Source of the DNA: Dryococelus australis | Taxonomy: Eukaryota > Arthropoda > Insecta > Phasmatodea > Phasmatidae | Direction of reading: 5' to 3' | Length of the DNA: 64,000 nt | Assembly (NCBI GenBank): GCA_029891345.1 | Contig: CM056995.1 | Location: 84,507,895-84,571,894, forward strand | In this document: one piece after another, positions 14,541 to 44,885 of the stretch | Numbering within the stretch: the first letter of the stretch is position 1 | Layout: each line of letters opens with the position of its first letter | Notes under the pieces: model-generated | The model's input: the letters and a program-made list of their open reading frames with translations, nothing else | The model's database searches: none | What the model was told of the DNA's origin: nothing | Translations under genes and position numbers: made by a program

Positions 14541-15395
14541 TTAAGGTTTTGCCCCATGTTCAATTAAAATTTTGCTAATTTCTTTTGATGTTTCCCACAT
14601 AGTTGCAGTTTCACCACATTTGTCCTCTGTATTTAGGAACTCTTCAATTTTTTTTCCTCATTAGTATCCAGTGCCTTTTTTATGTAGTCCAAACACACAA
14701 AACAGTCGATTAATTTTTACTAGGTACAGCTTCGTGTAATAGAGTACTGTCATGTCCTCTAAACAAGACATTGGCTCCATTTTCTAGTAAAAAATCTACA
14801 ACATTCACTAAACTATCTTGGACTGCGAATTTCAGTAATAAGAACTTTTTCAAGAAAACCGGGCCATGTAAACTATTCTCAGCTAAATAATGCACAATGT
14901 TTTCACAATTTTCATTAGTCGCTTTCAAAATAATTTCCAGTCTTTCTGAAGTCCACCCATTGCCTCGTCCATTGTTTGCACCAAATACACAAGTACCAGC
15001 CAGTTTTCAAAATAATAATTGGCATATTCCAATACGGTTACACCCTCTGAATCTTTAGCCAAAGCATTGACACGTTCTTCTATTAGGAATTTTACAATTT
15101 CCAAATTCCCGGCCGCTGCTGCTCGCTGAATTGGGAATTCACAACCAATATCTTTTTCTTTGAAATTTAGCCTCATCTCCTTCAGGTGTATGAGTTTATC
15201 TAGCCAACCACGATAGTCAGGTAAACTCACCAGTGACAGTTCGTTCTCGTCAAACAAGTCTTGTTTGTCGCAGCTGGCTTTCGTGTCTTCACTGGCTCTC
15301 GTGGTATCTTCGCTGGATCTCATGGTGTCTTCACTGGCTTTCATGGTGTCTTCACTCTGTAGTTTGCAGAAAGTGAGTGTGATCCCTTGATTCAA
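14541..15395 (-). pseudogene. Ankyrin-repeat protein, frameshifted
   Basis: The frame opens at 15395 with a short N-terminus in which a seven-residue unit (SEDTMKA, SEDTMRS, SEDTTRA, SEDTKAS) repeats four times. Ankyrin-type units follow: CEFPIQRAAAAGNLEIVKFLI, then, after a frame change near 14925, FAVQDSLVNVVDFLLENGANV and STLLHEAV, then CGETATMWETSKEISKILI ending at HGAKP and a stop. Ankyrin repeats bind other proteins. In insect viruses and polydnaviruses such proteins often mimic the NF-kB inhibitor. Host, viral or bacterial origin cannot be settled by eye. Two frame changes and weak repeats indicate a pseudogene. Confidence 0.65.
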
Positions 15396-15890
15396 TCGTC
15401 TCGTTTTTATACACGCACTGTGCGAGATCGTCTATTTTTTCTATTGGCTGAGAAAGAAAGTAAGTTTTTTATATGGTATTGTGGGATTTGCCGACCTTGA
15501 TAAATCAAACAAAAAGATTTTTATTTATTTGACTTTCACATACACGATTAATTTCAGATGCAAAAAAAATTACTAGGATATATTAGCACGATCTTGTCAA
15601 TTAAATGAGCATAGTGTAAAAAATAATTAAGCTTAGATTTATGCGAAATGTTAAAATGTAACACCGCTTGTTTCGTTTCTGCAATCATTATGCAAGTTTC
15701 ATTGCAAACTTTTTTTACTTTTTAACTTTCAAAACATTTTCATGTAAATAACAGATGGACAAATGAGTGATCAGTTTGACTCGCGCTCTCGACCTCAGCA
15801 GTCGGGTAATCGGAGTTAGTTTTTATTTAACAAAGTTACCAAATAGTTAAGTGACCACTGATGAAACATATTTCCTTTTAAAAATTCCTT
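15396..15890. other. AT-rich spacer, no gene seen
   Basis: About 500 bases upstream of the ankyrin gene contain no open frame or motif that I can support. They may hold the promoter of the ankyrin gene, but nothing specific is recognisable. Confidence 0.4.
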
Positions 15891-15891
15891 A

Positions 15892-16562
15892 TTACTTTTC
15901 AACTTTCAGAAGAGTTTTGGCATTAGTGACGAAACTGATTGAAAACGCTTTGAGGTTTCTGAATGTCTCGGGAGATACAATAACGTTTCGTTTGTTATCG
16001 GACTCATAAACTAGTCCGATTCCATTCTCAAAAGTCCGTTCAATGTAAAATTGTTTGTAAATTAACGGTTGGACGAGAAAAGTTTTGTGATTTGTTTCGT
16101 TGACATCCAACGAAACAAATCGTTTAGACGAACCGTGAATATAGTTTGCGGATGTTCGTCCAAAAGTTCGGAAATCGTATTAAATTCTCCGAAATTTAAC
16201 AGTTTCAAATTCTTAAATATTAACCGAGTAACTACACCTCTGGGAATATTCATAGTGTATATCTTTCCTGTTTTAAAACGAATCATGCTCGCCTCTCCCG
16301 GCTTGATGATTGATGGCCGTACAGATGATATCTTTTCGCCTGTTAAACTTGATTCGTTGGTATTTGTAAAATCACCGGTTTCGGTAGTAAATTCATTTTC
16401 CAGAGGTGTGGTCATGGTGAAGATGTAGTTTTTTATTTCCACCCCACCACCTTCCTCGCCCAATTTTATTACAGAGGTGTCAAAAATGTGGTGTTTTTTC
16501 CAAAAGTATATACCGAGTGGAATTACAATAATTAAACTAATTCTGAGTAGACCCATTCCCAC
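15892..16562 (-). pseudogene. Membrane-anchored viral-like protein, unknown, one frameshift
   Basis: Reading from 16562, an N-terminal hydrophobic segment (LLRISLIIVIPLGIYFW) acts as a signal anchor and is followed by about 145 residues without Cys-rich or enzyme motifs. Near 16090 the frame changes and continues to a stop at 15892, giving about 220 residues in total. The interrupted frame, N-terminal anchor and tight spacing to the next gene fit a virion envelope protein, but I do not recognise the family. Confidence 0.5.
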
Positions 16563-16648
16563 GTAGAGTTATTTATTTCCTTTATTCGTAGTTCTTACTT
16601 TATATTGGCAAATAATAGTAAAAAATTCGAAATTACATACATCGATTG

Positions 16649-17232: not shown

Positions 17233-17454
17233 TATGGAATCGTAAAAATATTTATTATTTATGATGACTGTCAGATGTAAAAAAATCCAAGCACAGAGGC
17301 GGATTTGGTTTTATAAATTCAACCGATTCCACAAATTCAGAATGTGTCATGTTTTTATTTAATTTTCTCCGCGTATTTAACTTTAACAACTCTCTAATCG
17401 CAAAGATAATATCACAAAGTATTGTTTTTTTTTCATACTGTAATATTCATTTAC

Positions 17455-17786: not shown

Positions 17787-19621
17787 TTATACTTGAATAA
17801 TTTTCAATTTATTCTTGTTTGTTGCTCTGGATAAGACTACATAAGTTTCTTCTAGCATACATTCCATCAAATTTGCATAAATGTCATTACCAATTGATAA
17901 TCCTATACTGCTCTGGACTGTATTTCCATACGTCATTTGATATGGGAAACCATATAACAAGGGTTTACTGTTTTTAGTAACTTCACATGCATATTGAAAG
18001 GCAAATTTATCTATCGTATAGAGATTCATCTTGAAGAAACATTTTGGTATCAGAAAGCAGGTTTTTCTCCTCATCACACATGAGTATTACATCTCCAACA
18101 TGTCCCAAATAATATAAAACTTCACCGATGCATACTCCATGATCATGAATTAAACTGCGGTAGGGAACACCAACGATTAGCGGCAAGTAGGCAGGTTTGA
18201 GGTTTTCTTTCTTTTCTGCTATAAATATTTCTTTATCGTTTGAAAAGAAAATCGGAATGAACCCGGGACGATTCTTGAAAATACTCTGTTTGTCCATCTC
18301 AGTCACATAAAGATGGCAGTTACTTTCCTTTTGATTTTTTTTTATTTGATTGACGACAGCAATCGACAAACTTAAATTGAAATAATTCGCTTCGATGTAT
18401 GTAAAGGCAAATAAAATGAATCCAGGAAACTTTACCAAGTTTTCCTGCACCCAATTCCAAATCTCTTTTGCATTGAGTACCAAACGTGAAGCAGTTTTGA
18501 TTTTCGGCTCAATCACAGTTGCCAACAACTCTACCGGATACTCAAAATCCAGAGTGAAACAACTCATGTTACGATTGTGTACGCCGAAATGACGTGTCAG
18601 CAGCTTCTTCCAGTTCGGAGAGGTATTTAAATTTGTCAGAAAACCCTGGTATTTCGAATCCATATTCCTAAACTGTGTGGTTAGGAAAAAAATATCACAG
18701 CATAGTCGCGAATAAGCGATATGTTGTTGGGATTGTTTGTCATAAACTGATTTAGCTGATACTGATCGCAACAAAATACAATCAAAACAGTTTACTAAAA
18801 GTGTGCTTCACCATTTGGAAATATTAAACTACAAATTTTGTTAGACATGCGCTGATCATACTGTATTCGTCAACAAACAAAACGTTGGGTGCAGCGAAGG
18901 AAATTGAATAGTCGTTATTGCATTCCATAAAAAACGAAGCTGTGTTGTATCCGAGATTGTAAAACATGCACATTTCTTGTACCACTGCAGATATTTTGTC
19001 AAGATCAATCAGTGGCAAGAGCTGCATGAATTTCAAATATTCGTAGTAACTGAATTTAGTCAACCGAATTAGGAGACATGGTAACGTCAAACCTTTTGCT
19101 AGTTTCATTTGTCGACAAATATTTCGCAATAGAATGTGTTGTGGGGTGGTGTAAAAAACTATGTATTTTTTTCTTCGAGAAAAATATGCAATAGTGTAGA
19201 TTTCCCACTGCCGGCAGGACCATTTAACATTATGTATTTAAGTGTAGCCAACTCACCATCATTCTCATCGAGCCATGTGAATTAAGTTGGTTTAACAAGT
19301 TCTTGTTCCTTTGAAAGAGTTAACTTTGCCGACATAAAATTTGTTGCTATTTCCACAGCTTTCGGTTCGGAATTCAATGAATATACAGGATAATTAACTT
19401 GTCATCGAGATTTTCACGCGGAATTTTTTGCGCCAGTAAACACATTTTATTACTACTCAGCACATCTCTAAAACATTAACTCCAGTCTCGTTTAGCCAGA
19501 AGGCCATGCTTAAAGCGTAATTTATTCTTGACGATTTTTCCAAAAATATTGATCCATGAAATGGGTTTTGTATGTTTTCCGAGGAGATTTTCGAGGAACA
19601 GCCAAATAAATAAAGAGACCA
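17787..19621 (-). pseudogene. helicase-2: SF1 helicase, Pif1-like (nudivirus helicase-2 type), decayed
   Basis: The ordered SF1 motifs are present on the minus strand. LTLSKEQELV is the Q-motif region. GPAGSGKST (19195-19221) is Walker A. VLFVDEYSMIS (about 18855-18887) is Walker B. TYGNTVQSSIGLSI is motif V, and YVVLSRATN near 17840 is motif VI. The product would be about 610 residues, similar to Pif1/RecD-like helicases. It would unwind DNA using ATP during viral replication. Frame changes near 19410, 19160, 18820 and 18050 and a stop at about 19260 break it. Nudiviruses and some baculoviruses carry such a second helicase, but a host Pif1 or Helitron-type helicase cannot be excluded on motifs alone. 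The context favours virus. Confidence 0.82.
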
Positions 19622-21642: not shown

Positions 21643-23830
21643 ATGGCAAGAATTTTGGATTTGGATGTAAGTACGGCTAATGTTATCTTTTCGTTCGAAC
21701 GAAATAACTAAAGCAAAATAGTCACGAGGGAGTGTTTGAATCCTCGGGGGAAGCTGTTTATTCACCAGTAGATTTGTATTGGCATATAGTAAACAACCAT
21801 GTATAAGGTTGGTGGATCGTAGGAAGGTTCGTGTAATAGCTATCAATAAAATGTGAAATTCGTTAAACTTGAATGATGAGCTAATCAATTACTTTGCGAA
21901 ACTTAAACGTTCTCTAATTTTCAAATTTTTCGTAATGTTTCCGAACAATTTGTTCGCGTTTTGGTGACGAATTTGGCAAAGTTTAGAAGCCAATGGTCCA
22001 AATACATGCTTATTTTTGTTATGATGGCTAGGCTAAACAATAATTTTCAGGAAAACCAACTAAATAAACTAATTTGTGGTGTTTCGTATAAAATGCGCAC
22101 CACATCCAATAGTTCCATATATCAATACATTTGTATAGACGATCTAAACACATCACTACTCAACCACAGAATCAAAGATGAAGCGATTGTCCAAACTACT
22201 AGTTCGAATAAAACACTACAATTTGTCATTAGTGAAAACCCTAAAAAATTATGTGAATGCCAACAACAATGGTGATTTTATGGTCACGGCATATTTTTAC
22301 AAACCTTCGGTGAACAAAAAATTTCCATCAAATGCCGAATATATGTATAGTGCGATTGATGGTTGACATTACGTACGTAAACCTCTCATCCTTTGTTGGT
22401 ATTCCAGGGATTTCTGCCATTTACGAGGATAAAGATCCGGGAAAAATAACCATTGACAACATGTGTGACAATCACGAGTACTATTTACATTGAATAGTAC
22501 TATTCAAAGCAATTTTATCTGATTTGTATTATTTGAGCAAGTACTTGGAAGCCATGCCCGATGGAAAACACTCACTAGTGGTGAATATTATCGATTCATT
22601 CACGGGAGATTGCAATAAAATTTTTGAAAAAGCTCTAGCCAATTTATTTAACGAAAGTAATGGTTTCCAAGTCGTTGAAAATATTCAGAGGCGCCTCGTC
22701 ATTTCAAACGCTTCCCCCGAAGTTCTAAACGATCGTTTTCAATTCGAGGATGGTGCAAACACAAAAATTTTATTCCACAAAAACTCTAGTACGCTTAAAG
22801 ATAAATAGGCTTTAGATATCGAAAACTTGAAATTGACTGCTGAATTGTATGTAGATAATTTACTATATATCGAAGAGAATTGAGAGTTTTTCTAGTTTAA
22901 TACCTCAAATACCCATAATAATAACTGCAGGTAAGTGGCATATGTATATTGTGGTGATCAACAAAGTTCGAACCAGTATAATTTACAGCAGAATACATAC
23001 TTGGACAATGAGATACTAACGATTATGATTTAATTTTTACATGGAATTTCGATAGCTTCCTTCAATACCATATTGCGATTTATAAAAAGTTATCCAACTG
23101 CTTTCTATAACAAGGTTGTAATTGCCAGCATTACCGATCTGAAGAAATATAAATTAAATGCATATTACGAATAAATCCATCATTGTGATAAAATGTTTAA
23201 TTATTTATGTGTATCTAGTTCGAGTAAAATAACTAAAGATATTGAGAGCAGGAATAGTTCAGATTGCATCCACATAATAGGTTTTTATAGTATAAATGAT
23301 AATATTATGATTTATGTGGATTCGACAAGGAACCTCTAACTACCTACTGGTGAAAACGTTATTTCTATTTCGCATAAAAATTTTGCGGTACAGATAGGCT
23401 CGCATGTTTAAAAGGATATACTATTTTATTCCACGGAATACATAATCAAATATCCTTCGAATTTGTATACAACTAGTAATCTCGACACATCCAACCAAAA
23501 GTTGAGCATGGTGGCGAAAACGAGTTATACGTGTGTTTGTTACAATTCCTTCAATCCCTTCCCCAATATTTAATATCATATATGATAGACCATCTATTGT
23601 GGTTATATGTTGGGAGTCTCTACAGAGTGTGTGTTTTCTAAATCGAAATACAACATTTAAAAAATTCGTCCGAACATATATTAGAAACAAATCCAATACG
23701 AATAATAGAAGAGGAAACTTAAATAGAAAAAACTTTAAAAAATACCCTTTTATCTATTTGGTACATTTGGGTAAAAAGAGTACTTTAGCACCCCATATAG
23801 AGTACATAGATAATTAATATAAATTTTACT
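21643..23830 (+). pseudogene. Viral-like protein of about 700 residues, unknown, heavily interrupted
   Basis: The frame opens at MARILDLDVS (21643) after about 300 bases that contain a Ser-rich stretch. The clearest open pieces are 21961-22275, 22178-22366 and 22524-22808, and coding-like sequence in one frame continues with stops to about 23560 and then in another frame to 23820. There are more than ten interruptions. The length suggests a large structural or transcription protein. No catalytic motif is visible, so no function is assigned. Confidence 0.42.
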
Positions 23831-24056
23831 ACAAATTTTTATCCATCAACCTGGGAGAAAAAAACTTTACAACCACCTGCTACAGATAAAATTATACGTG
23901 TATGAAAACGACAAAGATTTAAAAGATACTATACGTATTACAAATAACACCTTTCATTTTAAAAACAATTTTTGGGTAAAATAAAATCATAATTTTTACA
24001 TTTTTGATTAAGTGTTAAGTTGTGCTGTACTCGAAGGCACTCAATAACAGTAAGAC

Positions 24057-24393
24057 ATGGCGGCTGCCGAGATATTAGCACTGCTGAAAAAAGTTATGCT
24101 GAAAAAAGTTATAAATTTTTCAACAATTTGATTGACAATGCAAATGTTTCGAAAACTAAAACTACTACTGCTACTTTAAACACTAAATATGAACGTAAAG
24201 AGATGCTAGAATTGGGAAACAAAACTTTACAAAACACCTTGGAATGGAATTTTTTTTTTTTTAATATATGGTTATGCTGACCCTCATTACTGTGGAATTT
24301 ATGCAAATAACACAGATAATGACAGTTATAAAAATCATAATCATATTGATATTTTTAGCACTTATTGCATTCATTTATGTAAGTCATTATTGA
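24057..24393 (+). pseudogene. Small C-terminally anchored membrane protein, frameshifted
   Basis: The product starts MAAAEILALLKKVM (24057), changes frame twice through a polar helix with a Thr-rich stretch, and ends with a strongly hydrophobic segment (MTVIKIIIILIFLALIAFIY) and the stop at 24391-24393. It totals about 110 residues with one C-terminal membrane span. Tail-anchored small proteins of this type are common in insect-virus envelopes. The family is not recognised. Confidence 0.45.
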
Positions 24394-24528
24394 AAAAAAA
24401 TAATAAAAAAGAATCCTTTTAATTTTTTCTATTTCTTTTTTCTCTGTCTTGGTATATAGTGTGGTATTCAGAGTGTTGTAAAAAACTTGTAGTTGGTTTG
24501 AGAAAATTAACACGTCAAAGCGCTCCAG

Positions 24529-24835
24529 ATGGCTACAAAAATAGACGTCAACAGTTTCGCAGCGTTGACCGAAATAACTTATAACAAAGTCGGAAATAAG
24601 GATGACGATGAATCAGTTTCTCTTTTCGTCGATATGTTGACGAAAAATGTTTTATCATGTAAAGAATATGGATATTTCTTTCCCTTCATCAAGAAAGGTA
24701 TGACAAAAAATTAAAAAGGTATGTGTAAACACATTTCGCGAGATTTTCAAATTAGCCAAGGATCGACAATTACATCACACAAAGTACTCACCTGATGAAC
24801 TCTATGACTTGTTACTTCTACCCACGCATGAATAA
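24529..24835 (+). pseudogene. Unknown viral-like protein of about 100 residues, frameshifted
   Basis: The first 61 residues (24529-24714) are open, starting MATKIDVNSFAALTEI. After two frame changes the sequence ends LAKDRQLHHTKYSPDELYD, a few more residues and a stop at 24833-24835. It converges with the P74-like gene on the opposite strand, with about 40 bases between the stops. No motif is recognised. Confidence 0.42.
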
Positions 24836-24873
24836 GAACAACTACTAATTAAGAAAGTCTCTCAATTTAGATA

Positions 24874-26862
24874 TTATAAATTTTGATAAAAGGTAGACAT
24901 TTGTATAAAAGTCGCCATTACTAATAAAATAACTAATACAATAAATAAATGTATTATTTTATTGGTGAAAAATGCAGTTATTCCCGAAATTAGTATCGAA
25001 ACCCCCAGCAAATACAATCCTCTATCGATCATGTTTATTCGAGAGTTAATTTTAGATGTGTAGAGTATAAAGTCCAAAACTTGATCTGAATTTTGTGCAC
25101 TAAAAGTTTTCATTTGATTTGACCTCGTATCATCATCATTGCCACGCATATTGTTCCAATCGATGCGAGATCCATTCGAGTTGACTTTGAGGGCCAGAAG
25201 TTATTGTAAACGAAATTGCAATAGTGTTTTAAAATCGTCATCTTTTACTACTTTAGTAGGATGAATAATTGTAATAGTTTGGTTAAATATGGCATCGTAT
25301 TTTGAAAAGGCCGCTAATTTACTGGTGTCTGCATCATTATCAATAGAGGATGGTTGGATGGAAACATGATTCGCTAAATCGACAACTCCTTCGTCCGCAT
25401 TATTCCACATCATCACGAACATGATCGGTGCATAGTCCATCGTTCGAAAACCCTTAGTCCTTTTGTTTTAATTCCAATTCCAGGTTTGATATATCATTTA
25501 TGTATCTTGACCTAGTAGGTTTTGCAAGTTGAATGGATCTAATATGGTCGACCACGCATCGGCGACTGCAGTCATGATCAATACAACATCAAGTACGGGC
25601 ACCCAAGAAAGAGTAACTGCAGCAATTGCTCTAATGACGAATCCCAACATTTTCAAAGCAGTCGATATTATTGCTCTTGTAAAAAATTCTATCGTCAATG
25701 CTCTGAATAAATTAATTCCCAACTGACGATTCCAGATCTTTGCACCCGTTTCGATCATTGTGGATCCGATGTGTTTGACTAGGGTCTTGAGAACCATATT
25801 CAGACCGACCTCACCGAATAATTGCAGTAGGAACTCGTTGCTACCCAATCCTTAGATTCAAGAGATTATAATATCAGCAATAATGTCGGAAGTATCTTCT
25901 GTTCTTTTAAATCATCGGGATATTTGGTCGGTAAACCACCCATTAAACCGAGCATTTGATATTTGTCGATTGGACATTTACCATTATCTGTATATTTCAA
26001 GTGGTATGGCACCGAATCGGCTTGCAGTCCGATTCGAACACAAGTATCTTTATCGGAAACTATGGATTCGACATCGCTGGTCAGTATCAAAGGCTCCACT
26101 AGCCTACCCCCTCCCCCATACTCGGTGGTCCAAAATAAATGTCTCGGTGTTTTTTCTGTGATGCCCATGTCACTGAGTTTAAAGTCTGGATCTATGCAGA
26201 ATGCCTCGTGATTAACGAAGTTATTCCATTCCGCAACGTAATCGGGCATTTATCCTGTTGGTGGTACTTGCGGAGTCTTTACATCGTAATGATCGATTCC
26301 ATGAGCCAATTTCACGAAGTTTTATTCGATAATCGTGTACAAGTAATTTCCAATGAAAAAGCCTATTAATGTATTATTTAAATGGTTTGGGCATTCGTAA
26401 CCTGACAGAGACATGGTAAGATTATCATCTCCCACCTATGTCGCATACGGTGAAGAATCGACATCGAAACCAGTTCCTATTGTGTTTACGTGCGGAATAA
26501 TCGTGCCTTCTTTTACGCTCCAATAATCATCTATTCCCAACAGGGAGGCTTCTCGATGAACCAACATACATGCATCGCAGCGGTCGCTCCAATAGTTATT
26601 TGATCTGTGATATTTCGATTCGGGATCTTTGGTTGGAAAACATGCTCCTTGGCACACAATCACATTTGAATTACCACTCTTGAATATTTTAGGGATATCT
26701 CGAGGCATGCATGTTTTTCCCCATGGATAATGCATATTGCATCGACATGCAACACAGAATCGTTTTCCACCTTTAAGACGAATTTTAATATTTTTTATCT
26801 TTCAAAAACATTTCCCAAATCACTATAGAATTCAAGTTTGTTGGTCCGGTGAATATGGACAT
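24874..26862 (-). pseudogene. pif-0: P74 / PIF-0-like per os infectivity factor, decayed
   Basis: About 660 codons on the minus strand match the architecture of P74 (PIF-0), the envelope protein baculoviruses and nudiviruses need to enter midgut cells. The N-terminal half is Cys-rich, with CVACRCNMHYPWGKTC and VIVCQGACFP. A central region follows, with WTTEYGGGGRLVEP. Then comes a hydrophobic domain of about 90 residues ending WVPVLDVVLIMTAVADAW and a DPFN motif (25500-25848). Further on is a segment with LKVNSNGSRIDW, and finally two C-terminal membrane spans (24890-25060). The length equals the family's usual 640-700 residues. At least four frame changes (about 26775, 26440, 25860 and 25480) and several stops make it nonfunctional. 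The name is from recall of family features, not a search. Confidence 0.75.
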
Positions 26863-26911
26863 CTGATGTATATATATATTTTTTTTAGGTATATATAAGA
26901 AAATAACAAAA

Positions 26912-28048: not shown

Positions 28049-28055
28049 ATTACAA

Positions 28056-30722: not shown

Positions 30723-30803
<81 letters not shown>

Positions 30804-30820
30804 AGAGAGAGAAAAAGAGA

Positions 30821-30876
<56 letters not shown>

Positions 30877-33048: not shown

Positions 33049-33066
33049 ATAAAGGTAGTCTTGAGA

Positions 33067-33407: not shown

Positions 33408-33409
33408 GT

Positions 33410-34336: not shown

Positions 34337-34579
34337 CTATGCCAAATCCTGCAAGAATATCCTACCTTCAATCCGCTTGGTGATTAAAACATAAGTCCTG
34401 CAAAAAGATCTGACATTTTCATCTGGACCTAATTTATTTACAGTTTTATTCAGCTCGATGTCCGTTAGTATCAGTACACAAGTGACGTCATCTTGACTTT
34501 TATAAGTACGTAAATCTCTAGCACACATATGCCCACTGCAAAACCTGTGATAAGAATAGTTGCTACCAGAGCTAGACAT
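34337..34579 (-). CDS. Unbroken 80-residue viral-like ORF, unknown
   Basis: The frame runs MSSSGSNYSYHRFCSGHMCA to RIEGRIFLQDLA with four Cys residues and a balanced composition. It sits between two stretches of host-like sequence. It could be a complete small protein or the remnant N-terminus of a longer one. No motif is recognised. Confidence 0.42.
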   Translation of the reverse strand: MSSSGSNYSYHRFCSGHMCARDLRTYKSQDDVTCVLILTDIELNKTVNKLGPDENVRSFCRTYVLITKRIEGRIFLQDLA

Positions 34580-35220
34580 TTTAGTGAGAGAACAATTTGT
34601 TTTAACGTAATATTTACTACTCAGAACAGTTTAATTAATTTGATTTTGAAACCAGTAAATTCGGACTCTGGCAAGCTATGTCATGTAAATGTAAAAGGGT
34701 TCAAGTAGGCTAGGCATGACCACTTTTAGCATTGTTAAGATAGTGTGTTGTCTTTATAGCTTTTCGCATATTACTATCAGGGTTTTAAATTTTTTCTGAT
34801 CTAAACAATTACAATACAAAAAGAAATGAAAAGTAAAATAAATGAAATTTATTCAAAGGGCATATCTGTTTTATCGTTTTCTCTACTTTAGTATCAAGTT
34901 AACCCATTTCTTACCCAGTGTCTTACATTTGTGTTTACTAGAGTTTTAAATTGTCTGCCTTATTTTGACGTATCGGCCCAGGACTGCACCAGGCAATTAT
35001 ACAGAGGCAGCCTAGGTAAGATCCATCCTTTCCCACTGATTTATTGCAAGTCAGCTGTGCAGCCTGGTCACTCAAGTGTTATGTGTGTTGTCCCATTGTT
35101 GCATATGCAAATTCTACACCATACACAGCACATATCTACTTGAATACAATATGATTATATCTAATATTGGCTATCGCAACGAGGAGGCCTCATGTGTGTT
35201 CGTCACAGCTCCCTACACAC
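34580..35220. other. Spacer with host-like sequence, no gene
   Basis: AT-rich sequence passes at about 34960 into a more balanced segment (to about 35210) with no open frame of interest. It may be part of the same kind of insertion as 33.4-34.3 kb. Confidence 0.35.
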
Positions 35221-35224
35221 TATA

Positions 35225-35456
35225 TTACATATTTATATGAAATATAAGCTGTATTTCAAAATAACGGTGTGTTTCACAAGATGGTCGATTGTCTATCACT
35301 ACCGTTTCGCTGTATCGATTCGTCAGATTGACAAGTTTTATGTGATTTATCAAAGTTGAATTTCGATTGCAATGAAAACAAATGCACTCCACGAATAAAA
35401 GTAACACCTGCCGCAGTAACAACAACAATCACCCACAACCTCTTCCTATCGCGCAA
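35225..35456 (-). pseudogene. N-terminally anchored membrane protein fragment
   Basis: The fragment starts MRDRKRLWVIVVVTAAGVTF: a basic N-terminus and one membrane span, then a polar part with a Cys. A frame change near 35280 leads to a stop at 35225. Its 3' side abuts host-like sequence, so the gene may be truncated. Baculovirus and nudivirus entry-complex proteins often have this short-anchor layout, but identity is not shown. Confidence 0.4.
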
Positions 35457-35494
35457 GCATTGTTCCGTGTGATTCCAAACATGGAATAGTCAGA

Positions 35495-35779
35495 ATGTTG
35501 AAAAGTACCGATCCTTTGGAAATTGAATGGGTGTGTATCTCGACTTACCCACTCGTGTGGAACGATGACAAGTCTCAGACTCCGTACGCCTGCAAGGATG
35601 GAATCGTCATGAGCGATCTGACAACGTCCAGCTTTAAACTAAACAATTGTAAATGCAGTGCTGATATATTGGGTGTTTTCGAATTTCAGCCACACATGCC
35701 GAGATGTTTCCCATCAACCCATGTTAATTTCTTGACAAACTTTCATAAAATTCATCATATCAACAATAATAATTCATAA
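35495..35779 (+). CDS. Cys-containing 94-residue viral-like ORF
   Basis: The frame from MLKSTDPLEIEWVCIS is open for 94 residues and contains five Cys residues within a strand-rich domain (YACKDGIVMSDL, LNNCKCSADILGVFEF, MPRCFPS). The Cys pattern suggests a disulfide-stabilised secreted or envelope domain such as those of per os infectivity factors. An assignment to a particular one would be a guess. It starts 38 bases from the divergent membrane fragment. Confidence 0.45.
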   Translation: MLKSTDPLEIEWVCISTYPLVWNDDKSQTPYACKDGIVMSDLTTSSFKLNNCKCSADILGVFEFQPHMPRCFPSTHVNFLTNFHKIHHINNNNS

Positions 35780-35857
35780 GATGCATGCATTTATATATTT
35801 TTATTATTATTATGTTTAACTAGGGTTGTTGTAGTTTTAATTTACTTTTCCACAGAG

Positions 35858-36298
35858 ATGCGATACTTCATACCGGAAACTTACAAGAGAAACGAAAATG
35901 AATTGCCTATTAAATTTTGAATATTATTTTCCACAATACCTTCGTATCTCAATAAACAATCAATTTTTAAACGCACACAATTATTTTTCCAAGTGTTAAA
36001 TCAGCAATATGAAACTGAAATCTTTATGTGCGCGAATAGAAACGATTCCAATGTCGCCATATTCCATTTTCTAGCCGTGATCACGGAGATGGAGACCCGT
36101 TCAGTGGCGAAGTTCCAATATGCGCACATGCATCCCTACCTCCCTACAAAAGCATGTTTTGACAAAGATAATAAATGGTATTTGAAAAAACAACTCCGAG
36201 AAAGAGCTAACGACGTGGAAGTTATGAAGAGACAATTGTTGATTCAAGTTGCAAAAGAGGGTGTCGCCGTCAATACCACCAAAGAAAGCACAGAATAA
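35858..36298 (+). pseudogene. Viral-like protein, one in-frame stop; decayed tail to about 36580
   Basis: From MRYFIPETYKRNENELPIKF the frame is continuous to 36298 apart from one TGA near 35918. The C-terminal part is a basic helix (KKQLRERANDVEVMKRQLL). After the stop, coding-like sequence continues in other frames to about 36575 (MKFEEATQLASKETSQLQ, then NMYGSVKNTLSTYLKFF), so the original protein may have been about 230 residues. Function is unknown. Confidence 0.45.
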
Positions 36299-36604
36299 AT
36301 AAGCAACAGTTTGAAACCAAATTTCTTGTTGTTGAAGTTGAATGAAGGCAATATTGATATTCCATGTTATGTAATTTGCGTACAAAAATGAAATTTGAAG
36401 AGGCAACTCAACTAGCTTCGAAAGAAACATCCCAACTGCAAGGCATTGCTGCATTTAGAGTATAATTTAGCATCTCGAAACATGTACGGCAGTGTCAAGA
36501 ACACATTGAGCACATACTTGAAATTTTTCAAGGATTACTTTAAAATTAAATATATCGAATTTACAGAAAATTGAATGTTGATTCAAATCGATAATATGGA
36601 AAAT

Positions 36605-36695
36605 GAAGTGTATGTGTATGTGTATGTGTGTGCGTGTGCGTGTATATATATGTGTATATGTGTTTGTGTGTATGTGTGTGTGTGTTTGGTTGTAA
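36605..36695. repeat. TG/TA-rich microsatellite
   Basis: Imperfect GTGTATGTGTATGTGTGTGC-type repeats of about 90 bases. The following 300 bases (36700-36995) are AT-rich and hold no gene that I can support. Confidence 0.9.
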
Positions 36696-36995
36696 AAAAT
36701 AAATATAAATAAATAAATCTAATTTTTTTTTAAATTATTAATTTTGCTCGATTTACTGAAATTATTTTACGCGTATGTAGTAACCATTTCCAACTACTTG
36801 ACCCACTCTATGTTTTTTAAACTTGTTTAACTTTTTACTCAAACTAGTACTTTGTCTCCTCTGTCTGCATCAAATGGGTAATTATGATTTTCTATTCAAA
36901 GGACTTGGAGACCTAGTCCTGCTACGACTATGTCGTCTTTGTCTCCTTTGTTTTGGCATAACCAGGTGTGTATGTGTGTTTTTAAAATTATTTAT

Positions 36996-37475
36996 TTAGT
37001 AAAAGTTCGATAATATTACCCAAATGCAAACTGCGAGCACATACTTGTATTCATCATGGACATTTGATAAAAATTTACCCTGTTTTGTGTAAATATTACA
37101 CAACAAATTTAGTTCTTGTAAATAATGTTCGAAGCATAGAAAATTCAAAATGTTTTCTTGAATCTCTTCGAAAACTCTGTAATTTTCGTCAGGGTATAGG
37201 TTGAGTTTCAAAAAGTTGAAATATTTACCATATACACCCATTCTCCTATTTGAGCTTCGAGAAGTAAATTATCTGCGAAAATCTTAAACTTTTTTTTTTT
37301 CTGGATAACCAATTTGGGTGATTAAAGTATCGGGAAATAAATCGTAATTAAGTGCCATCGTGTCCATCTTACCGTTTGGCATAATTGACAAATCCTGCAA
37401 ACCGCTATAAATACTCGAGCCTAGAGTAGATGTAGGTCTGGCGGCAGAAGAAGATGAAGTCGACATCTTATCCAA
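36996..37475 (-). pseudogene. Unknown protein of about 160 residues, slips at an A-tract
   Basis: The product starts MDKMSTSSSSAARPTSTLGS (37475). At a run of A near 37290 the frame shifts into KFKIFADNLLLEAQIGEWV and then into GVYGKYFNFLKLNLYPDENY, ending at 36996. The Ser-rich N-terminus and helical C-terminus make a sensible single product. The family is not recognised. Confidence 0.42.
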
Positions 37476-37554
37476 AAATTATAATTGAGAATGCGATTTT
37501 CCTCATGTTCATCACCGATTTTGGGAACGTTCTATTTGTCGGGTGCGCCATCAC

Positions 37555-38476
37555 CTAATCATCATCACCATTCATTTTAGGCATTGTCATTTCGGGAGAT
37601 GTAGACATCTCATCACTGTGGTAACTATCGAAAGTCGCTGAGCGAAATTCGACGACGTAATCGTGAACATTCTTTGTATTCCTCTCTGAGTTTTTGATTG
37701 ATTGATATAACCGTGCGATTGTGTTTGAATGGTTGGCGTAAATGATTTTCACAGTTATCGTCGATGGTTTTGGAACGGGGTGGTATTTGACAATCGATTA
37801 AAGGTAATCTCGCCCTCTCTCCTTTATTGAAACCTTCAGATGGTAAGCAATTATCCTCGTCCTTTCTGGTTTCGTCATCAGCCAGGAAGCCATCATCGTC
37901 ATCACCATGATTCGACTCTTGGTAAGTGCGAATTTATGGAAACAGACTGGAATACGATTGTTTTGAAACACGATGATGGGATTTTTGGCGAGGTGCGGGA
38001 GTACCAGGAAAGGTGATCTTAGGTCCCAGCAAATGTGTTTGATTGGAATCTTATGATTGTGGGCGTCTGGGTAATGATTTGAGGGGGGGGGGGGAGTTGG
38101 TGGTCTGGGATGAGATTGTGATGCAAATATAAATTTTTTCATAAATATTTGCGAAAATGTGACATATGCAAAAAAGTACATTAACATCATTTTGATAAAC
38201 TTTATTTTTTTCTTTAGGATTAAACACCAACATAACCCCCTCGTCATTGTTTTCAAGTTTTAAACAAGTCGATAAACTCAGATCGTCATAAAACAAGTTG
38301 GCCACTTTGCGAATAACCATATTGAATATAACGATACTAAAAGGGGGTAAATCCGTAAATATTTGTGGAGGTAATTTATGTGGGTCGTTGTAACAAATTT
38401 TTAAATTACGATTGTTATATGCGTATGAAATCTGTCCAATTTTAAAATAATTGGAATCTTAATTGTTTTTGCTCAT
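37555..38476 (-). pseudogene. Viral-like protein of about 300 residues with acidic/basic tail
   Basis: The frame starts MSKNN, a stop, then DSNYFKIGQISYAYNNRN. It continues through IFTDLPPFSIVIFNMVIRKV and LKLENNDEGVMLVFNPKEKN. A run of ten G at 38083-38092 marks a frame slip. Another segment (IKHICWDLRSPFLVLPHLAK) follows, then an acidic patch (GDDDDGFLADDETRKDED) and an Arg-rich end (LREEYKECSRLRRRISL). The N-terminal two thirds look globular. A replication accessory or structural protein is possible, but no name is justified. Confidence 0.45.
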
Positions 38477-38684
38477 GGCCAAAATTTGTAATGTAGATCT
38501 GATATGAATAATTATTCATTTTTTGTAGGAGTTATAACTTATAATGAAAAAAAAAATTAAGTAATTTCATTTAGATATTTATTTTATAAATATGTATTTT
38601 ACAAATACATTGATTCATTTATGACACAAAAATATATTTATTTACATATATACCTGCAAAAACAGATTTATTTAGACAATACAA
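38477..38684. other. AT-rich spacer
   Basis: Tandem AT-rich sequence including two ATTTATTTA-like blocks. No gene is seen. Confidence 0.4.
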
Positions 38685-39327
38685 TTATTCATTTTTTACA
38701 TAAGAGTTGTTATACTGAGAATAAAATTTTCTGAAAAGATAGTTCCAAATAAAATCTACATTTGCCAGAAAACATCTTTGTTGATTTGCACTTGGATTAT
38801 GAAAACCGCAGGTGCCACATTCGATGGGAAATTTCCATGTAGCTATTACGAGTTTCTCGTCAGGCACACCCAACTACATCAGAAAGTGTATTTTTTGAGC
38901 GCCTCTCACGACGATGTGTCGGGTCCAACTTTCGTTTAGGATTTTGCGAATTGTTTCAATATTCATTACGTGGAAGATTCCAAGGTATGCCACCATATAC
39001 TTTCCGGTAGAGGTACAAATTTTGCCCAAAATCACCCAACATACTTGTACATAGGTGAGATATATGAACTGGTCTTTGAACATGAGTCATGTAAATACCC
39101 TTCTTCATAGCACATCCAAATTCTAGGGGAACGTTTTCACCAGCATAAACGCTAAATTGAATGTCGATGACTATAGTTTTATCCAGTTCAAAATCCACTT
39201 CATCCGTAGATGACATTTTGATGTAGTTTAATTGTGGAATTTCGTTCAAAGTTGTTGCTTGATTGAATTTTTCGAGTAATTCTGGCGATGACAAATCTTC
39301 TATGGTAGCTTCTTTCCAGAAGCTCAT
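38685..39327 (-). pseudogene. Paralogue 1 of a tandem gene pair, possible nuclease-like fold
   Basis: The frame starts MSFWKEATIEDLSSPELLEK (39327) and stays open for 123 residues. It includes KTIVIDIQFSVYAGENVPLE and YGGIPWNLP. After a frame change near 38990 it continues TIRKILNESWTRHIVVRGAQ, then CGTCGFHNPSANQQRCFLAN, and ends at 38685. The hydrophobic-Asp-hydrophobic-X-Phe strand near the start and the late Cys/His cluster recall an RNase-H-like DEDD exonuclease, but not all catalytic acids are visible. Clear similarity to the next gene upstream shows duplication. Confidence 0.5.
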
Positions 39328-39409
39328 CTCGTCAGAGTCCTCAGCTCACTCCTGGGGTAATTGTGTTTGTTCAATGACCATTTCAATACGAAATTAGTTT
39401 TTTCATTTT

Positions 39410-39410
<1 letters not shown>

Positions 39411-39505
<95 letters not shown>

Positions 39506-39524
39506 CACACACACACACACTTGT
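39411..39524. repeat. TA microsatellite with CA tail
   Basis: About 46 TA dinucleotides (39412-39503) followed by a short CA run. It separates the two paralogues and adds meaningless Tyr-Ile repeats to the minus-strand frames. Confidence 0.97.
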
Positions 39525-39529
39525 TTATG

Positions 39530-40499
39530 CATAAAAAAATTATTTATTGCAATATCCATTGCCCTTATCACATCTTTAGCAGTTAGATCCCAAATCAACC
39601 GAACTATGGGTAGGGCACAGTCCCAAGAAATTTTCTTTAGAATGGCATTTGCAAATTTTTCCAAGTCTATTTGAATTGCTCATGTGGCAAATAATTATTT
39701 TCTTCCTGGGCACTCTCATTTTTTTCGTAAATATCTAGCCTGCTCTTCATTTGCTATAATTATAAATTTAATCCAGGCTTCTTTCAAAATTGAACGAACT
39801 GTTTTGAGTTTGACGTTTTTCTATTTAATTTCCCAGGGTATTCTTTCATGTACAAATTGCAATTTTATTCGAGATTTTTAGACATACTCTTTACCAAGTG
39901 TATGTATGGGACAGGTCTAGTTATATACAAAATGCTTGACCCTCGTTGTGTAGCATATCCAATCTCCAATGCATATATTGTTCCCATGATATCTGCCGAA
40001 TTTAAAATCAACAACTAAAACAGAACCTAGATTAATATTTTCCAACAGCTTATGTTTTTCTTCTGGCCTTTTTCTACTCAGAGTAGGTTTTTTGTCCTCT
40101 TCACTAGAGTTGCTTGAAGACCCTGAACACCCTTCACTGCTGTTGGTACTTTCTTTGTCTTTTCCTTTTTAAACTAAATTTTTGCTCTTCCGTTATATCG
40201 AAGTCTTGTTCTTATTTTATGTCAAACTTTTTCTCTTCTTTTATATAAGACTTTTGTTCTTCCTCTACAAATTCATCAGTCGAACGTACCTCTCCTTCTT
40301 CATCACCAGTGTCACCATCAGTATTCCATGTTGAATGTCGTACTTGTTGATAATATCTCGAGTCATCTCTCGAAGAGTGTTGTATAGCTTCAGCTTCAAG
40401 TTTACCATTCAAAGGCTGTAGTTGATGCTCTTTAGGTTCAGCTCCATGTTCATTAAACACTTGTTTAAATACTACCTCGTCACTGGAAATAGTCAACAT
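39530..40499 (-). pseudogene. Paralogue 2 of the tandem pair with an extra acidic N-terminus
   Basis: The frame starts MLTISSDEVVFKQVFNEHGA (40499) and is open for 95 residues, very rich in Glu/Asp/Lys. After stops and frame changes it enters the shared domain: GSVLVVDFKFGRYHGNNICI aligns with VIDIQFSVYAGENV of paralogue 1, HERIPWEI with YGGIPWNL, and TVRSILKEAWIKFIII with TIRKILNESWTRHIVV. The end (LEKFANAILKKISWDCALP) has decayed and runs into the TA repeat. At least six interruptions make it more degraded than paralogue 1. Confidence 0.48.
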
Positions 40500-40788
40500 G
40501 AGTTATCACTGGGAAACTTCTCACAGTCACTGCAACTGCACAAATGACTTCTCTGTGATTTCCGATGCCTATATATACAAGAGTACGAAAAAAAAAATCT
40601 TTATCATGTATGGAATTACTCACTATTTTATTTTATTTTTGTCATTTCTAAAACCTGAGTTTGTGAAAGATCTCGTGACATCGCCGAAAACCATTTTGAT
40701 TTTTTCAGCATTATACACTTTAAGTAACACTGTGTTCTTATTGCAACACATTGAAGATTCCGGTGGAACGTTTTTACTGGCAATTTAA
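40498..40788 (+). CDS. 96-residue membrane-protein ORF, divergent from paralogue 2
   Basis: The product is MSYHWETSHSHCNCTNDFSV then, after a polar stretch, MYGITHYFILFLSFL and TILIFSALYTLSNTVFLL, two likely membrane segments, with a stop at 40788. Its ATG overlaps the ATG of the minus-strand gene within the four bases CATG at 40497-40500. The frame is undamaged. Either Met at the start or the internal Met at 40606 could initiate. Function is unknown. Confidence 0.42.
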   Translation: MSYHWETSHSHCNCTNDFSVISDAYIYKSTKKKIFIMYGITHYFILFLSFLKPEFVKDLVTSPKTILIFSALYTLSNTVFLLQHIEDSGGTFLLAI

Positions 40789-40832
40789 TGTTTATTTGAT
40801 CATTGCGTAATAAACTGAAAAAAATAACGCCG

Positions 40833-41968
40833 ATGGAAATTTTAAACATTATTAAAGTTGAATACGTTCACCATCCAAACAATATGCGGAAAAATATCTC
40901 TATGGTGATGGACGTTCTCAACAAACAGCCGACCTTCTTTGTGACCATACCCGAATATGGCAAAACTTTAATGATTCTCTAAATGCATAGGGGATGGAGA
41001 GGTTCAAAATCGACTTTGATTTGGATATTGTTGCATTTAATGTTGGTTGGCGAAAATAATCGCAATAGAAATTATAATTACGCCAATCTTTATCACAGTT
41101 TACACGAAAATTTGGATTTTTTTATACTGTCTTCCATGTGTTTCGATGGATACAGAAACAAAAAATCAATGCTTAAAATACTTGCGAAAAATAACTTTCC
41201 GCAAGATTATATAATGGTATTAATTAATTCGAGCATCGAAAATTAGAAAAATATTTCACAGATCTATAACACACCCCCCGGTGATAGTTTTGCTAATGCT
41301 CGAGTATCGGCAGTTGAAATTACGCGTATTGGGCCGAGAGGAAAAACAAAAAACACTTATTTCGGTAAACAAAACCACTTGGCAGTGGGTAATTGAAAGC
41401 TACAATGTCGAGGGTGGCGAGGAGGATGATAGCAGTGGGGAATTTGGTAAATGTAAGCAACATTTGAGACACAAGACACTGGGCGAGTTTATCCTAATCT
41501 ATAAAAGCGTTTTTTTTTTTCAAACAGTTACTCGTGCATAGATACATTGTATTAGTGAAAATTTCATTCAAGGAAATATGTCTGGATTTTTTCCAACGAT
41601 GGATAAAATCAACCTCGTATAAATATGTAAAAAGTTATCTACAAATTTCAATCAGAAACGATTGGTTGTGGTTACAAGGATTAATGTATGAAAAAAGACT
41701 AGGTTAATTTTATTTTTGGCAGGATAATGCAAAAAGACTGTTTTCGAAAATAGAACATCGAGATTAATCGCTGATGCGATTAATACTTGAAATGCACAAA
41801 CAAAACTATGAGAATTGGCGACAAATGACCCAGGATAATAGAGAACATTTATCATTGCTCGGATTGTATTATTTTGGAAAAGGTTTGTTTCTCAGCTGCT
41901 TAAAATTAGACAATATAATATGCCGATATGATAAAAATTGTAATAACGAATGTATTTGCAATAAATAA
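40833..41968 (+). pseudogene. Viral-like protein of about 375 residues, several frameshifts
   Basis: The frame begins MEILNIIKVEYVHHPNNMRK and keeps open after a stop at 40980 to 41246 (MHRGWRGSK to INSSIEN). It then changes into SFANARVSAVEITRIGPRGK and into the 41281-41541 piece. After 41525 it continues as YIVLVKISFKEICLDFFQRW and ends in the 64-residue piece closing at 41968. All pieces are coding-like and collinear. Its length matches viral late transcription factors, but no signature is visible. Confidence 0.42.
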
Positions 41969-42102
41969 AAAAAAAGCTCATTTTTATGGCACATTTTTGT
42001 AAAAAAAAAAAAAACGATTTTAAAAATATATTGTTTAAACCAGCATAACATTGAATATAAGACGAAAAATTAATTGTTTTTCTTCCAGTCAAACACAAGT
42101 CG

Positions 42103-42282
42103 ATGTTGTCGGACGAGACCAGCGAATACTTGCGGAATAATCTCGACTGTTTGTATTCTGCATTTCTGGCGAGAAAATACAGCCCAAATTTTTTCCTGTA
42201 TATCACTTCGATCAACATTTCTGTCTCAGTCTTGTTTATAAGTATTCTGATATACGTCTTATTTCGCGAAAAGGATTATTGA
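42103..42282 (+). CDS. 59-residue C-terminally anchored membrane protein, intact
   Basis: MLSDETSEYLRNNLDCLYSA leads to a C-terminal membrane span (SINISVSVLFISILIYVLF) and ends REKDY and a TGA. It is undamaged, and 10 bases separate its stop from the next ATG. Tail-anchored small proteins next to replication genes are typical of compact insect-virus genomes. The family is not recognised. Confidence 0.5.
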   Translation: MLSDETSEYLRNNLDCLYSAFLARKYSPNFFLYITSINISVSVLFISILIYVLFREKDY

Positions 42283-42292
42283 CTCGAGTAAA

Positions 42293-43737
42293 ATGACCGA
42301 GGTACGGGAACATATTGGGAAAATTATCAAATGCATTGAGGAAATAGGCCGAGTAACTGTCGATGCGAATCTGGATCGCATAATAATGCAACTTGTGAGC
42401 TGATATGCCACCAAATACGATCGAAACAATATTATCTCCATTGTCAGATCTAGTGAACTCGGTAAAATCACCCAACAGGAAATTTCGCCCTTTGGTTTCG
42501 ATCTTTTGTTAAAGTGTATGTTGCTCATTGGTCGGCAAAAAAGAACACAGAGCAGAGTACGATTATGGGCTGGTTGCGCAAAAAAAAAAAAGTTTGGCTT
42601 ATCGACGCATAATCTTGGACATTGACATCGACAAGGAACACGATTTCGACTTGTACAAAGAGAACCTCGTTTGATGCAATTGTGTATTAGAGTTTGTCGA
42701 GAACATTACTGCAGCCACGTTCCCATTTTACATCAAGGGGTCTTGTCTGGTGACACATCGGCCCGAAAAGGCCAACTTTCACCTAATTCTACCCATAGTG
42801 ATGGATTTCGTCAGTGCACATGTATTTTTTTTTTTGCCATCTTTTCACCTTTACTTGCAATCGAACGAGGGGTTGGAATTCAAGTATGTGTTGGACAATT
42901 CAGCACAGTGTTCCTTGCCCACTGCCCGAAATCACGTGCCTGAATGGCTGAGCACATATGATCATTTTAAAAAACCAAGTCCCATTAATATACGGACTCT
43001 AAAGGATGAGCTCGTGTCTTTTGTTCCCTTTTAAGATCCCTTCAAAGAGCATGAAGCCATCGTAGTTTCCATAACTTGAAGTTCATAGCGAGAAGTTTTT
43101 TCTTTAAAACTCGATCGGACCGTGGAATACGTCAGACGATAAACGTTCATCGATAAGGCAATCAGGAAAATGCGAAATAACAAGGAATCGATTGCGGCAA
43201 ATGGCCGTTGGGTGCAAATGGGAAACAACATTGGTGGTTATTGCGAGGAAGGTTGGGTAAAATTATCCATCGGATCGACTGAGTACAGGCTTGGATTTGA
43301 ATATATCGCTGCATATTTCGTCGTGTGTTTTTATTGAGAAATTACTCACAAAATTGAAAGTCTAAGAGGAAGTGACGATGATAGTGTAATTACCAAGATG
43401 TATGAATTGTAAAGAGTCAGCACACTCGAGACAAATTTTCAGTTTGTGACCAACCAGTTGGAGAACACTTTGTTTAACGTGGAAAAAACTGGACATTCAT
43501 CTGACATCATCTTTTCCGAGTAGGCGTTGGGAAGTGCCGAACATCAGGTTCCTTTTTACGCTCGTGAATTTTACCCCTTTAGTAAAAATCTATTGTATGT
43601 GATTGATCGTTTCGAGGAGACAATACTACAACCCAACATTGACTTTGATCATTACAAGGAAAATTTCATGCATGCAATCATAAATGGTTTATTAGCTGAA
43701 GATTCGGACTGTTTTTACGTGGCCTACACATTCTAAA
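42293..43737 (+). pseudogene. AEP-type DNA primase-like gene, decayed
   Basis: From MTEVREHIGKIIKCIEEIGR the frame runs with stops and one slip at the A-tract (42580) into RRIILDIDIDKEHDFDLYKE. The DIDID at 42618-42632 sits at the end of a hydrophobic strand, as in the catalytic hhDhD motif of archaeo-eukaryotic primases. About 50 codons later KANFHLILP matches the sXH-like second motif, and YVLDNSAQCSLPTARN resembles the third acidic motif. The order and spacing fit a viral primase that makes RNA primers for replication. The remaining 250 codons have stops near 43035 and 43340. No helicase ATPase motif follows, so a fused D5 helicase is not seen. Confidence 0.5.
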
Positions 43738-43799
43738 TATGTTATTGCAAAGCAAATAATATCGAAACTAAAAACATAAACATCATTGTTGAAGTAATT

Positions 43800-44885
43800 G
43801 AATGATGGAATAAGTGGATTTTGGGCAAGCAACAACGGTGATGACAAGATCAGCAGAAAAATAAATATTCCAAAAATGGTTCGAAACAAAGTAGAAATGA
43901 AGAATATGGCGATGGATGTGAATACGACGGAGATGAAGACTATCCTCCATGAAAACGGTTATGTTGACCTGCATCATCGGATACATTATAGAAAAATACT
44001 ACTGGCTCATCTCTGTTTGATTGGATATGTTAAATCGCGGTTATGAGACGAGCATGTTATCATTGATCGTTCGCTACATCGACAGTAAAAATTTAATCAA
44101 ATTGATTGGACATGTGTTCAAGTTTTTCAATGTGAACTGGTATGCAAAGTTCATTTTGAGCGGTTGGTACACCCACGAAAATGTAACCAATCACTTGTAC
44201 GTGGGATTCTACAAGACCGACATTCTTTACTTTTCGCTTTCGTCTTTATGTGAAGGACCTCTCAACTGGACAAACCTGCTCAACCTGTAAAAATATGTCA
44301 TCTTTGGCGAATCCAATGGTCGAGAGAGAGGTGAAAATGGGGATTCGTCTTCGAATAAAAAAAATAAATTTCTTATATCTGGACATTTTATTGACGATGC
44401 GATGTGGCAATTTGGTGTTGCTGTTTGGCAATGGAAAGTTTTCGATTGTGCACGAAAGAAAGTTGTCCTTTAGTCTCGAAATACAAGAGTACGAGGTGGT
44501 TCTCGACCATCTAGGTTACCAAGTCTTTCGCGATGGGTATGTGTTTAACCCATTACTAAATGTATTTGAAACAACTTCGCCTTCACTGACATCTCTGGTG
44601 GCTATCAAGCACCATTACGACAGTTTAAAACTGATAATGACCCTGTTATATTTCCCTCATATACAAGACCTGTGTTTCGACATCTAGCTTAAATTGCCAC
44701 ATTTATTATCACAGTTACAATACAAGTTGATGGTGATGTTATTCTGCCCAATATTTTTAACATTGTGGCTAAGCAGTATGCACTGATCGCACCTGATTTG
44801 AAACCCCTCGACTACATAGATAACAATTTTGTTGTTACTTTCAATGATTTGGCTCTAAACTACAATGGCCTCCAACACTCATAGA
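43800..44885 (+). pseudogene. Downstream coding remnant of about 350 residues, unknown
   Basis: Overlapping open pieces at 43798-44046, 44021-44290 and 44250-44687 form a plausible chain. They include YIDSKNLIKLIGHVFKFFNV, LYVGFYKTDILYFSLSSLCE and, in another frame, VLDHLGYQVFRDGYVFNPLL. A last piece in a third frame reads VTIQVDGDVILPNIFNIVAK. It may be the C-terminal half of the primase-like gene or a separate gene. No motif is recognised. The viral block ends here. Confidence 0.4.

Follow-up and report, generated by a model that had tools for sequence, protein, structure and literature searches.

A probable fusion of a naldavirus genome and a Merlin-type transposon, present in many copies in the stick insect Dryococelus australis

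Teratorn, a fusion of a piggyBac transposon with an alloherpesvirus in medaka, is about 180 kb long and has 18-bp terminal inverted repeats (TIRs) and a TTAA target, with 30–40 copies for one subtype and about 5 for a second; the portions of the sources available describe all open reading frames as intact in six sequenced copies (PMC5601938, PMC10175614) and report a test of transposition in cultured cells (PMC5601938). Endogenous nimaviruses of crustaceans have likewise been described as giant transposable elements, integrated by a tyrosine recombinase or by Ginger2 into telomere repeats, 28S rDNA or (AT)n, with a Ginger2-like DDE transposase and 46-bp TIRs in those of sesarmid crabs (PMC10871703, in the part available). 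Here, we analyse a stretch of 64,000 nucleotides, hereafter called the window, on contig C4 of the Dryococelus australis assembly (3,415,067,245 bases in 646 contigs). The window very probably holds a damaged copy of a virus–transposon fusion.

The element shares with Teratorn the combination of a large double-stranded DNA (dsDNA) virus with a DNA transposon, inverted tips, target-site duplications, precise ends and many copies in an animal genome; in both, a viral genome is enclosed by transposon ends with a target-site duplication, the interior of our element having been read in parts. It differs from Teratorn by the Merlin type of its transposase, its 8-bp duplications, its transposase-bearing terminal modules in direct orientation, its naldavirus genes, its presence at at least 150 places and its decay. 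Like the endogenous nimaviruses, which are placed in the Naldaviricetes and group with white spot syndrome virus, it derives from a large dsDNA virus and can be described as a giant transposable element, but its transposase is of the Merlin type, its terminal modules are direct, its targets are AT-rich at the few sites read and its host is an insect. With Merlin/ISXO2 transposons it has in common the transposase domain (PF12762), inverted tips and an 8-bp duplication, Merlin duplications being of 8–9 bp. In a microsporidian genome, all 84 complete Merlin transposases have a DDE_Tnp_IS1595 domain (PF12762) and, in the accessible part of that report, these Merlins consist of TIRs and one transposase gene (PMC4202319), whereas our element has a viral genome enclosed by two copies. 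Remnants of nudiviruses in arthropods are similar in that viral genes of broadly the same kind are fixed in insect genomes; unlike here, no transposase-defined ends or large amplification are mentioned for them in the available section of PMC7943256.

Fusions of this kind are already known from Teratorn and the Ginger2 nimaviruses; what is new is the Merlin transposase, the naldavirus genes, the insect host, the direct terminal modules and the very high copy number. We found no Merlin–naldavirus fusion with direct terminal modules in a literature search confined to open-licence papers.

Viral genes and their copies in the genome

Stop-to-stop pieces of the window were scanned with profiles one by one (between 11.5 and 47 kb, 131 of 140 pieces with a length of 65 amino acids or more; in the outer parts, 64 pieces selected out of 155 of at least 62 amino acids). 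A P74/PIF-0 piece scores just below the Pfam cut-off of 23 for PF04583 (E 3.1e-4, 20.8 bits). Eight P74 loci fetched from other copies score far better, and the region is colinear at the DNA level with all eight, which bears out the P74/PIF-0-like gene proposed in an initial annotation of this DNA; the only profile match of the piece is viral, neither cellular nor from a transposon. PIF-3, missed by that annotation, is found about 10 kb away (Table 1). In other copies, the two genes, paired by eye, are often 40–54 kb and sometimes 18–29 kb apart. The viral genes of the window are broken on both strands by stops and frame changes, as described before, and by inserted repeats as well. Indel errors are reported to be numerous in the long-read (CLR) contigs of this species (PMC10268593, in part), so some of the frame changes may be sequencing errors.

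Across the genome, P74 candidates numbered 380, of which 150 were scored and 145 matched; PIF-3 candidates numbered 269, and all 150 scored were matches; PIF-2 was matched in 39 of 104, in part close to PIF-3, while 14 control genomes gave zero matches for each of the three. These counts are lower bounds, and the fossil is present at at least 150 places in the Dryococelus australis genome. A single fossil of about 30 kb, the original proposal, is ruled out by the genome-wide copies: the window holds part of one copy among many of an element that is bounded by precise termini and target-site duplications and carries a transposase. A contaminating contig joined in error during assembly, raised earlier as a possible source, is rejected as very unlikely given independent copies at different sites. 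With 269–380 candidates of 50–90 kb, the element load would be roughly 0.4–1% of the 3.4 Gb genome, and the element may account for part of its unclassified repeats. The available portion of the genome paper gives 3.42 Gb in 17 major scaffolds and 1,879 scaffolds in all, a scaffold N50 of 262,277,254 bases and a repeat content of 63.29%, the majority unidentifiable, and contains neither the string “nudivir” nor “virus” (PMC10268593); the 646-contig assembly searched here lacks the small scaffolds included in that count.

The copies are unevenly distributed. Contig C17 contains 38 of the 145 P74 places, where its length predicts 13.9, and 37 of the 150 PIF-3 places, where 14.3 are predicted, an over-representation of 2.6–2.7 times among places that are not fully independent. 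This contig (326.6 Mb, the fourth longest of those compared) may be Scaffold_4, the putative X of PMC10268593, and is probably the X chromosome.

Per os infectivity factors (P74/PIF-0, PIF-1, PIF-2, PIF-3 and others) are a trait of the Naldaviricetes, whose genomes are large dsDNA circles that encode DNA polymerase B among other replication genes; the Nudiviridae are marked by core genes that include LEF-type RNA polymerase subunits, and an Ac81 homologue is a mark of a Lefavirales-type core. P74 and PIF-3 occur in the window and PIF-2 elsewhere in the genome. Among 36 frames scanned within about 1.5 kb of P74, PIF-2 and PIF-3 in other copies, one, not tied to a particular copy, has an Ac81 domain (PF05820, E 1.4e-14); a matrixin domain is likewise unplaced, a dUTPase domain is located in L031, and Bro-N domains in L018 and L019. 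These genes support a large dsDNA virus of insects, of Naldaviricetes type, a placement at class level that agrees with the initial annotation. The narrower label “nudivirus-like” was not demonstrated: homologue searches with PIF-3 and PIF-2 returned three proteins in all, with no named nudivirus among them and none placing the family (one relative of PIF-3 at 61%, two of PIF-2 at 67% and 61%). All three are on short contigs, suggesting that such elements or free-living kin exist elsewhere. IMG/VR scans with P74, PIF-3 and PIF-2 alignments gave no confirmed relative, PDB sequence searches no relevant relative, and an Rfam search of the window 0 matches.

Terminal modules, transposase and target-site duplications

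DNA searches showed that the repeated unit extends to the left of position 14541, where the fossil had been thought to begin. Element homology reaches position 624 and is broken by an LTR (long terminal repeat) retrotransposon at about 1009–11090. Four fetched left ends and a fifth (L044) start at the base equivalent to 624, in unrelated flanks. The terminus motif (24 bases, at most two mismatches) occurs genome-wide at 855 forward and 831 reverse sites, against 1 and 0 for a reversed control, and in two types on opposite strands, A (GGTA) and G (GGTG). Paired sites among 100 listed are 1.8–3.0 kb apart, mostly 2.4–2.9. They delimit a module, usually of 2.4–2.9 kb, which starts with GGTAATTG, ends with CAATCACC and carries a Merlin-type (DDE_Tnp_IS1595) transposase; its 24-bp tips (GGTA.../GGTG...) are imperfect TIRs.

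The same module in the same orientation is present beyond PIF-3, at 32 kb in L051 and L052, 39 kb in L053 and 6–27 kb in other copies. These three right-hand loci all share viral DNA inside the module, and homology stops exactly at the far module tip CAATCACC in L051 and L052, while L053 ends before the tip. The shared inner viral DNA and the loss of homology at the tip indicate that the element consists of module, virus and module in direct orientation. Both tips were read for six further modules. Five of these are element ends (one left, four right) that obey the same rule, and one is a solo module with host-like flanks on either side and a duplication of 7/8. Reading some terminus sites as inverted modules was rejected, since five ends follow one rule. 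Both ends were recovered in four of six elements tried (Table 1); their spans may include later internal insertions and deletions. All 8-bp duplications given here were read by eye from flank sequence.

Nine of ten module frames from other copies match PF12762 at E ≤ 1e-3 (best 7.4e-13; eight above the cut-off), and the frame from L052 has no transposase match. The module transposase frame has 132 relatives at E ≤ 1e-5, of which 120 were listed, the top one being 45% identical over the whole query; several of the matches listed come from arthropods, and the named ones include crustaceans and Periplaneta americana, the latter with the nearest named transposase.

We compared the first kilobase of 14 modules (704–1000 bases per module, the joined window row left out). 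Left and right modules of the same element differ by Kimura two-parameter (K2P) distances of 0.100, 0.083 and 0.092 in three elements; between elements, mean distances are 0.129 (left–left), 0.143 (right–right) and 0.136 (left–right), with 0.100 as the smallest single value. In all three elements, the partners are mutual nearest relatives among the 14 modules, with ultrafast bootstrap values of 98 (taken from a Newick split), 91 and 93. Since partners are nearest to each other, both modules of one element most likely derive from a single module at insertion, in the manner of a cointegrate or an LTR provirus. The module tree is otherwise star-like (internal branches 0.056, terminal branches 0.902), as are the distances among copies for PIF-3 (mean K2P 0.139, standard deviation 0.022; 19 of 21 copies long enough) and P74 (0.119, 0.015; 8 of 9). 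The window copy was at one time considered older than the others, an idea dropped as its PIF-3 mean K2P is average (0.138 versus 0.139).

Origin of the element and competing explanations

The explanation that we hold very probable is that a circular naldavirus genome and one Merlin transposon became fused and were integrated by the transposase as an LTR-like provirus; the circular form, the action of the module transposase and the replicative route are what we infer. An insect virus with the oral-infectivity genes of the Naldaviricetes, its genome probably circular and about 90 kb in size, would have harboured a single Merlin-type transposon some 2.5 kb long. Recognising the ends of this transposon, the transposase would have joined them to host DNA via an 8-bp staggered cut, either replicatively (cointegrate-like) or from a head-to-tail concatemer. 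The entire virus would thereby have been inserted with a transposon copy on either side, the arrangement of an LTR provirus. Many insertions would have occurred within a short period in a stick insect ancestor, the copies decaying later. If insects accumulate close to 3e-9 substitutions per site and generation, half the distance between partner modules would represent very roughly 15 million generations.

The broader proposition, of a dsDNA virus that independently evolved the provirus plan of retroviruses (a circular genome, one transposase-bearing module that doubles at every integration into long terminal direct repeats with inverted tips and target-site duplications, mobility of its own, several hundred copies and a surplus on one chromosome, probably the X), is one towards which we lean only slightly. 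With this element, the virus–transposon fusions known from herpesviruses of fish and nimaviruses of crustaceans gain a member from a lineage of insect viruses, with another type of transposase, and a dsDNA virus is seen with the architecture of an LTR-like provirus. Two questions become open to test: how large DNA viruses come to reside in genomes, and whether a Merlin transposase can insert a large circle in one piece.

Several observations weigh against a transposase-integrated provirus. Two of the four element duplications are imperfect, all four having been read by eye, and an exact-match test for duplications at six module sites found none, five of these sites being single ends, where no duplication is expected. 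No right end could be found for the element at C1:308.9 Mb (L069) and no intact left end for that at C2:177.2 Mb (L067); continuity between the ends rests on marker order and spacing, the interior having been read in parts. No intact transposase was seen among the frames examined, and its activity is putative. The dN/dS ratios in selected open frames (PIF-3 0.52, P74 0.75) mean that some of the divergence may be older than the insertions or stem from having selected open frames. The closest cross-element module pair (0.100) equals the least close pair of partners, and gene conversion between paired modules could also cause their likeness.

A variant of the same explanation is that the transposase excised the element from a head-to-tail viral concatemer by cutting at the left tip of a module and at the right tip of the following one, the linear piece then being pasted into the host. 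It predicts an identical anatomy, with 8-bp duplications and module pairing unchanged, and would use cut-and-paste, the usual mode of eukaryotic DNA transposons; it requires a concatemer with unit-spaced modules, however, and the data in hand fit the cointegrate route equally. We regard it as a tentative option, of less than even probability.

Alternatively, viral circles with a single module could have entered by homologous recombination with Merlin modules that the host genome already contained, as in Campbell-type integration. This would also give module, virus and module, with duplications inherited from the older module insertion, and solo modules do exist (one of the six sites). Partner modules would not be expected to be mutual nearest relatives, however, yet they are in all three elements, and the 1,686 terminus sites fit about 420 elements with four sites each, which suggests that solo modules are a minority. 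We consider this route improbable. More doubtful still is a composite transposon in which the virus is cargo moved by two Merlin copies of independent origin, one on either side, that evolve separately. The layout is that of bacterial composite transposons, where two transposon copies flank a cargo, but the modules do not group by side in the between-element means given above and instead pair within elements. Passive endogenisation of a nudivirus-like genome followed by segmental duplication can draw on nudivirus-like genes reported in dozens of arthropod taxa (Cheng et al. 2020, as described in the available part of PMC7943256), but is hardly credible, as the flanks vary among copies while the ends match to the base, and the 8-bp duplications and precise ends contradict it.

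The window copy and its surroundings

Table 1. Features of the window copy (positions in the window) and elements recovered with both ends (positions in contigs C17 and C2)
Feature	Position	Strand	Length (bp)	Evidence
Left terminus of element (outer terminal repeat, GGTAATTGTTCC...)	624..641	+		First base identical in six copies (window, L044, L047–L050), flanks unrelated
Outer part of left terminal module	624..1008	+		81–86% identity to left modules of L047–L050 and L044
Gypsy-type LTR retrotransposon within module, not viral element	1009..11090	+		Self-comparison; LTR alignment of 1000–2653 with 9546–11098
Remainder of left terminal module	11091..13615	+		Matches modules of other copies at both element ends
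Piece of Merlin-type (DDE_Tnp_IS1595) transposase	11445..11714	+		PF12762, E 6e-6, 26.8 bits (cut-off 27)
37–39 bp tandem repeats of module	12048..12421			TRF; homologous arrays in L047–L050
Inner end of module, imperfect inverted copy of terminus	13592..13615	-		22/24 bases; equivalent tip of right module is outer right end of element
Ankyrin-repeat gene pieces	14713..15431	-		Sub-cut-off Pfam Ank matches
Gene pieces of putative Pif1-type helicase, unconfirmed	17790..19237	-		Motif-like strings alone
P74/PIF-0 gene region, broken	23620..27119	-		PF04583 at 25501–25851; colinear with 8/8 fetched P74 loci
PIF-3 region, upstream part	33072..33555	+		Adjoins homologue of window 35253 onward in 19/20 fetched PIF-3 loci (exception L014)
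1.7 kb insertion dividing PIF-3 region	33556..35252			Absent in 19 loci matched on both sides
PIF-3 region with PIF-3 piece 35420–35776	35253..36179	+		PF05006, E 4.4e-19; matched in 20/20 fetched PIF-3 loci
Further element DNA, partly rearranged versus other copies, matched in parts	36180..44937			L009, L020, L023 (within 36.2–37.5 kb), L024 (39.9–41.0 kb), L015 (41.9–43.3 kb), L012 (44.2–44.9 kb)
Two-ended element	C17:80675658-80771351		95,694	8/8 duplication, AATATTTT on both flanks
Two-ended element	C17:239669660-239764003		94,344	8/8 duplication, GTAATGTT on both flanks
Two-ended element	C17:134453068-134539442		86,375	7/8 duplication
Two-ended element	C2:153677314-153728539		51,226	6/8 duplication

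The 10 kb Gypsy-type retrotransposon that separates the left end of the window copy from the remainder includes reverse transcriptase (6472–6978), weak RNase H (7098–7424) and integrase core (7835–8158) domains, and is missing from the four fetched left ends and from L044. Its two LTRs differ by a K2P distance of 0.167 (0.136 without CpG), somewhat more than the viral copies do from each other (without CpG, 0.113 for PIF-3 and 0.098 for P74; the full distances are given above). This is at odds with the expected order, in which the insertion should be younger than the viral copy of the window.

The Ank matches of the ankyrin-repeat pieces reach 1.3e-5 at best, all below the curated cut-offs. 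Three neighbouring pieces (17790–18086, 18010–18807 and 18827–19237, all on the minus strand) had been taken for a Pif1-type helicase, a claim that we could not uphold: none has a relevant Pfam match at E ≤ 0.1, the sole match being an unrelated weak DUF2129 (0.036) in the third piece, and a PDB search with the first piece found no relevant relative. What speaks for a helicase is the motif-like strings spotted by eye. Two microsatellites lie within the viral block, (TA)39 followed by (AG)n at 30723–30876 and (AT)46 at 39412–39504.

On the right side, shared element DNA extends to at least 44937 (L012). Dense tandem arrays (10/40/80-bp and 168-bp units) occupy 45016–45681, just past the last matched element DNA, and may be the right edge of the viral part of the window copy. 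Further on, a GC-rich non-LTR retrotransposon at 47455–50382 (minus strand) with a 976-aa open frame has, in the scanned set, endonuclease and reverse transcriptase domains and adjoins a run of 56 Ts (47161–47216); it is apparently a young LINE (long interspersed nuclear element) insertion. To its right, in very AT-rich DNA, the frame at 56298–56786 (minus strand) matches the phospholipase A2 domain PF08398 (E 8.3e-10), which we take to be parvovirus-type, and is perhaps a remnant of a densovirus or of another viral element.

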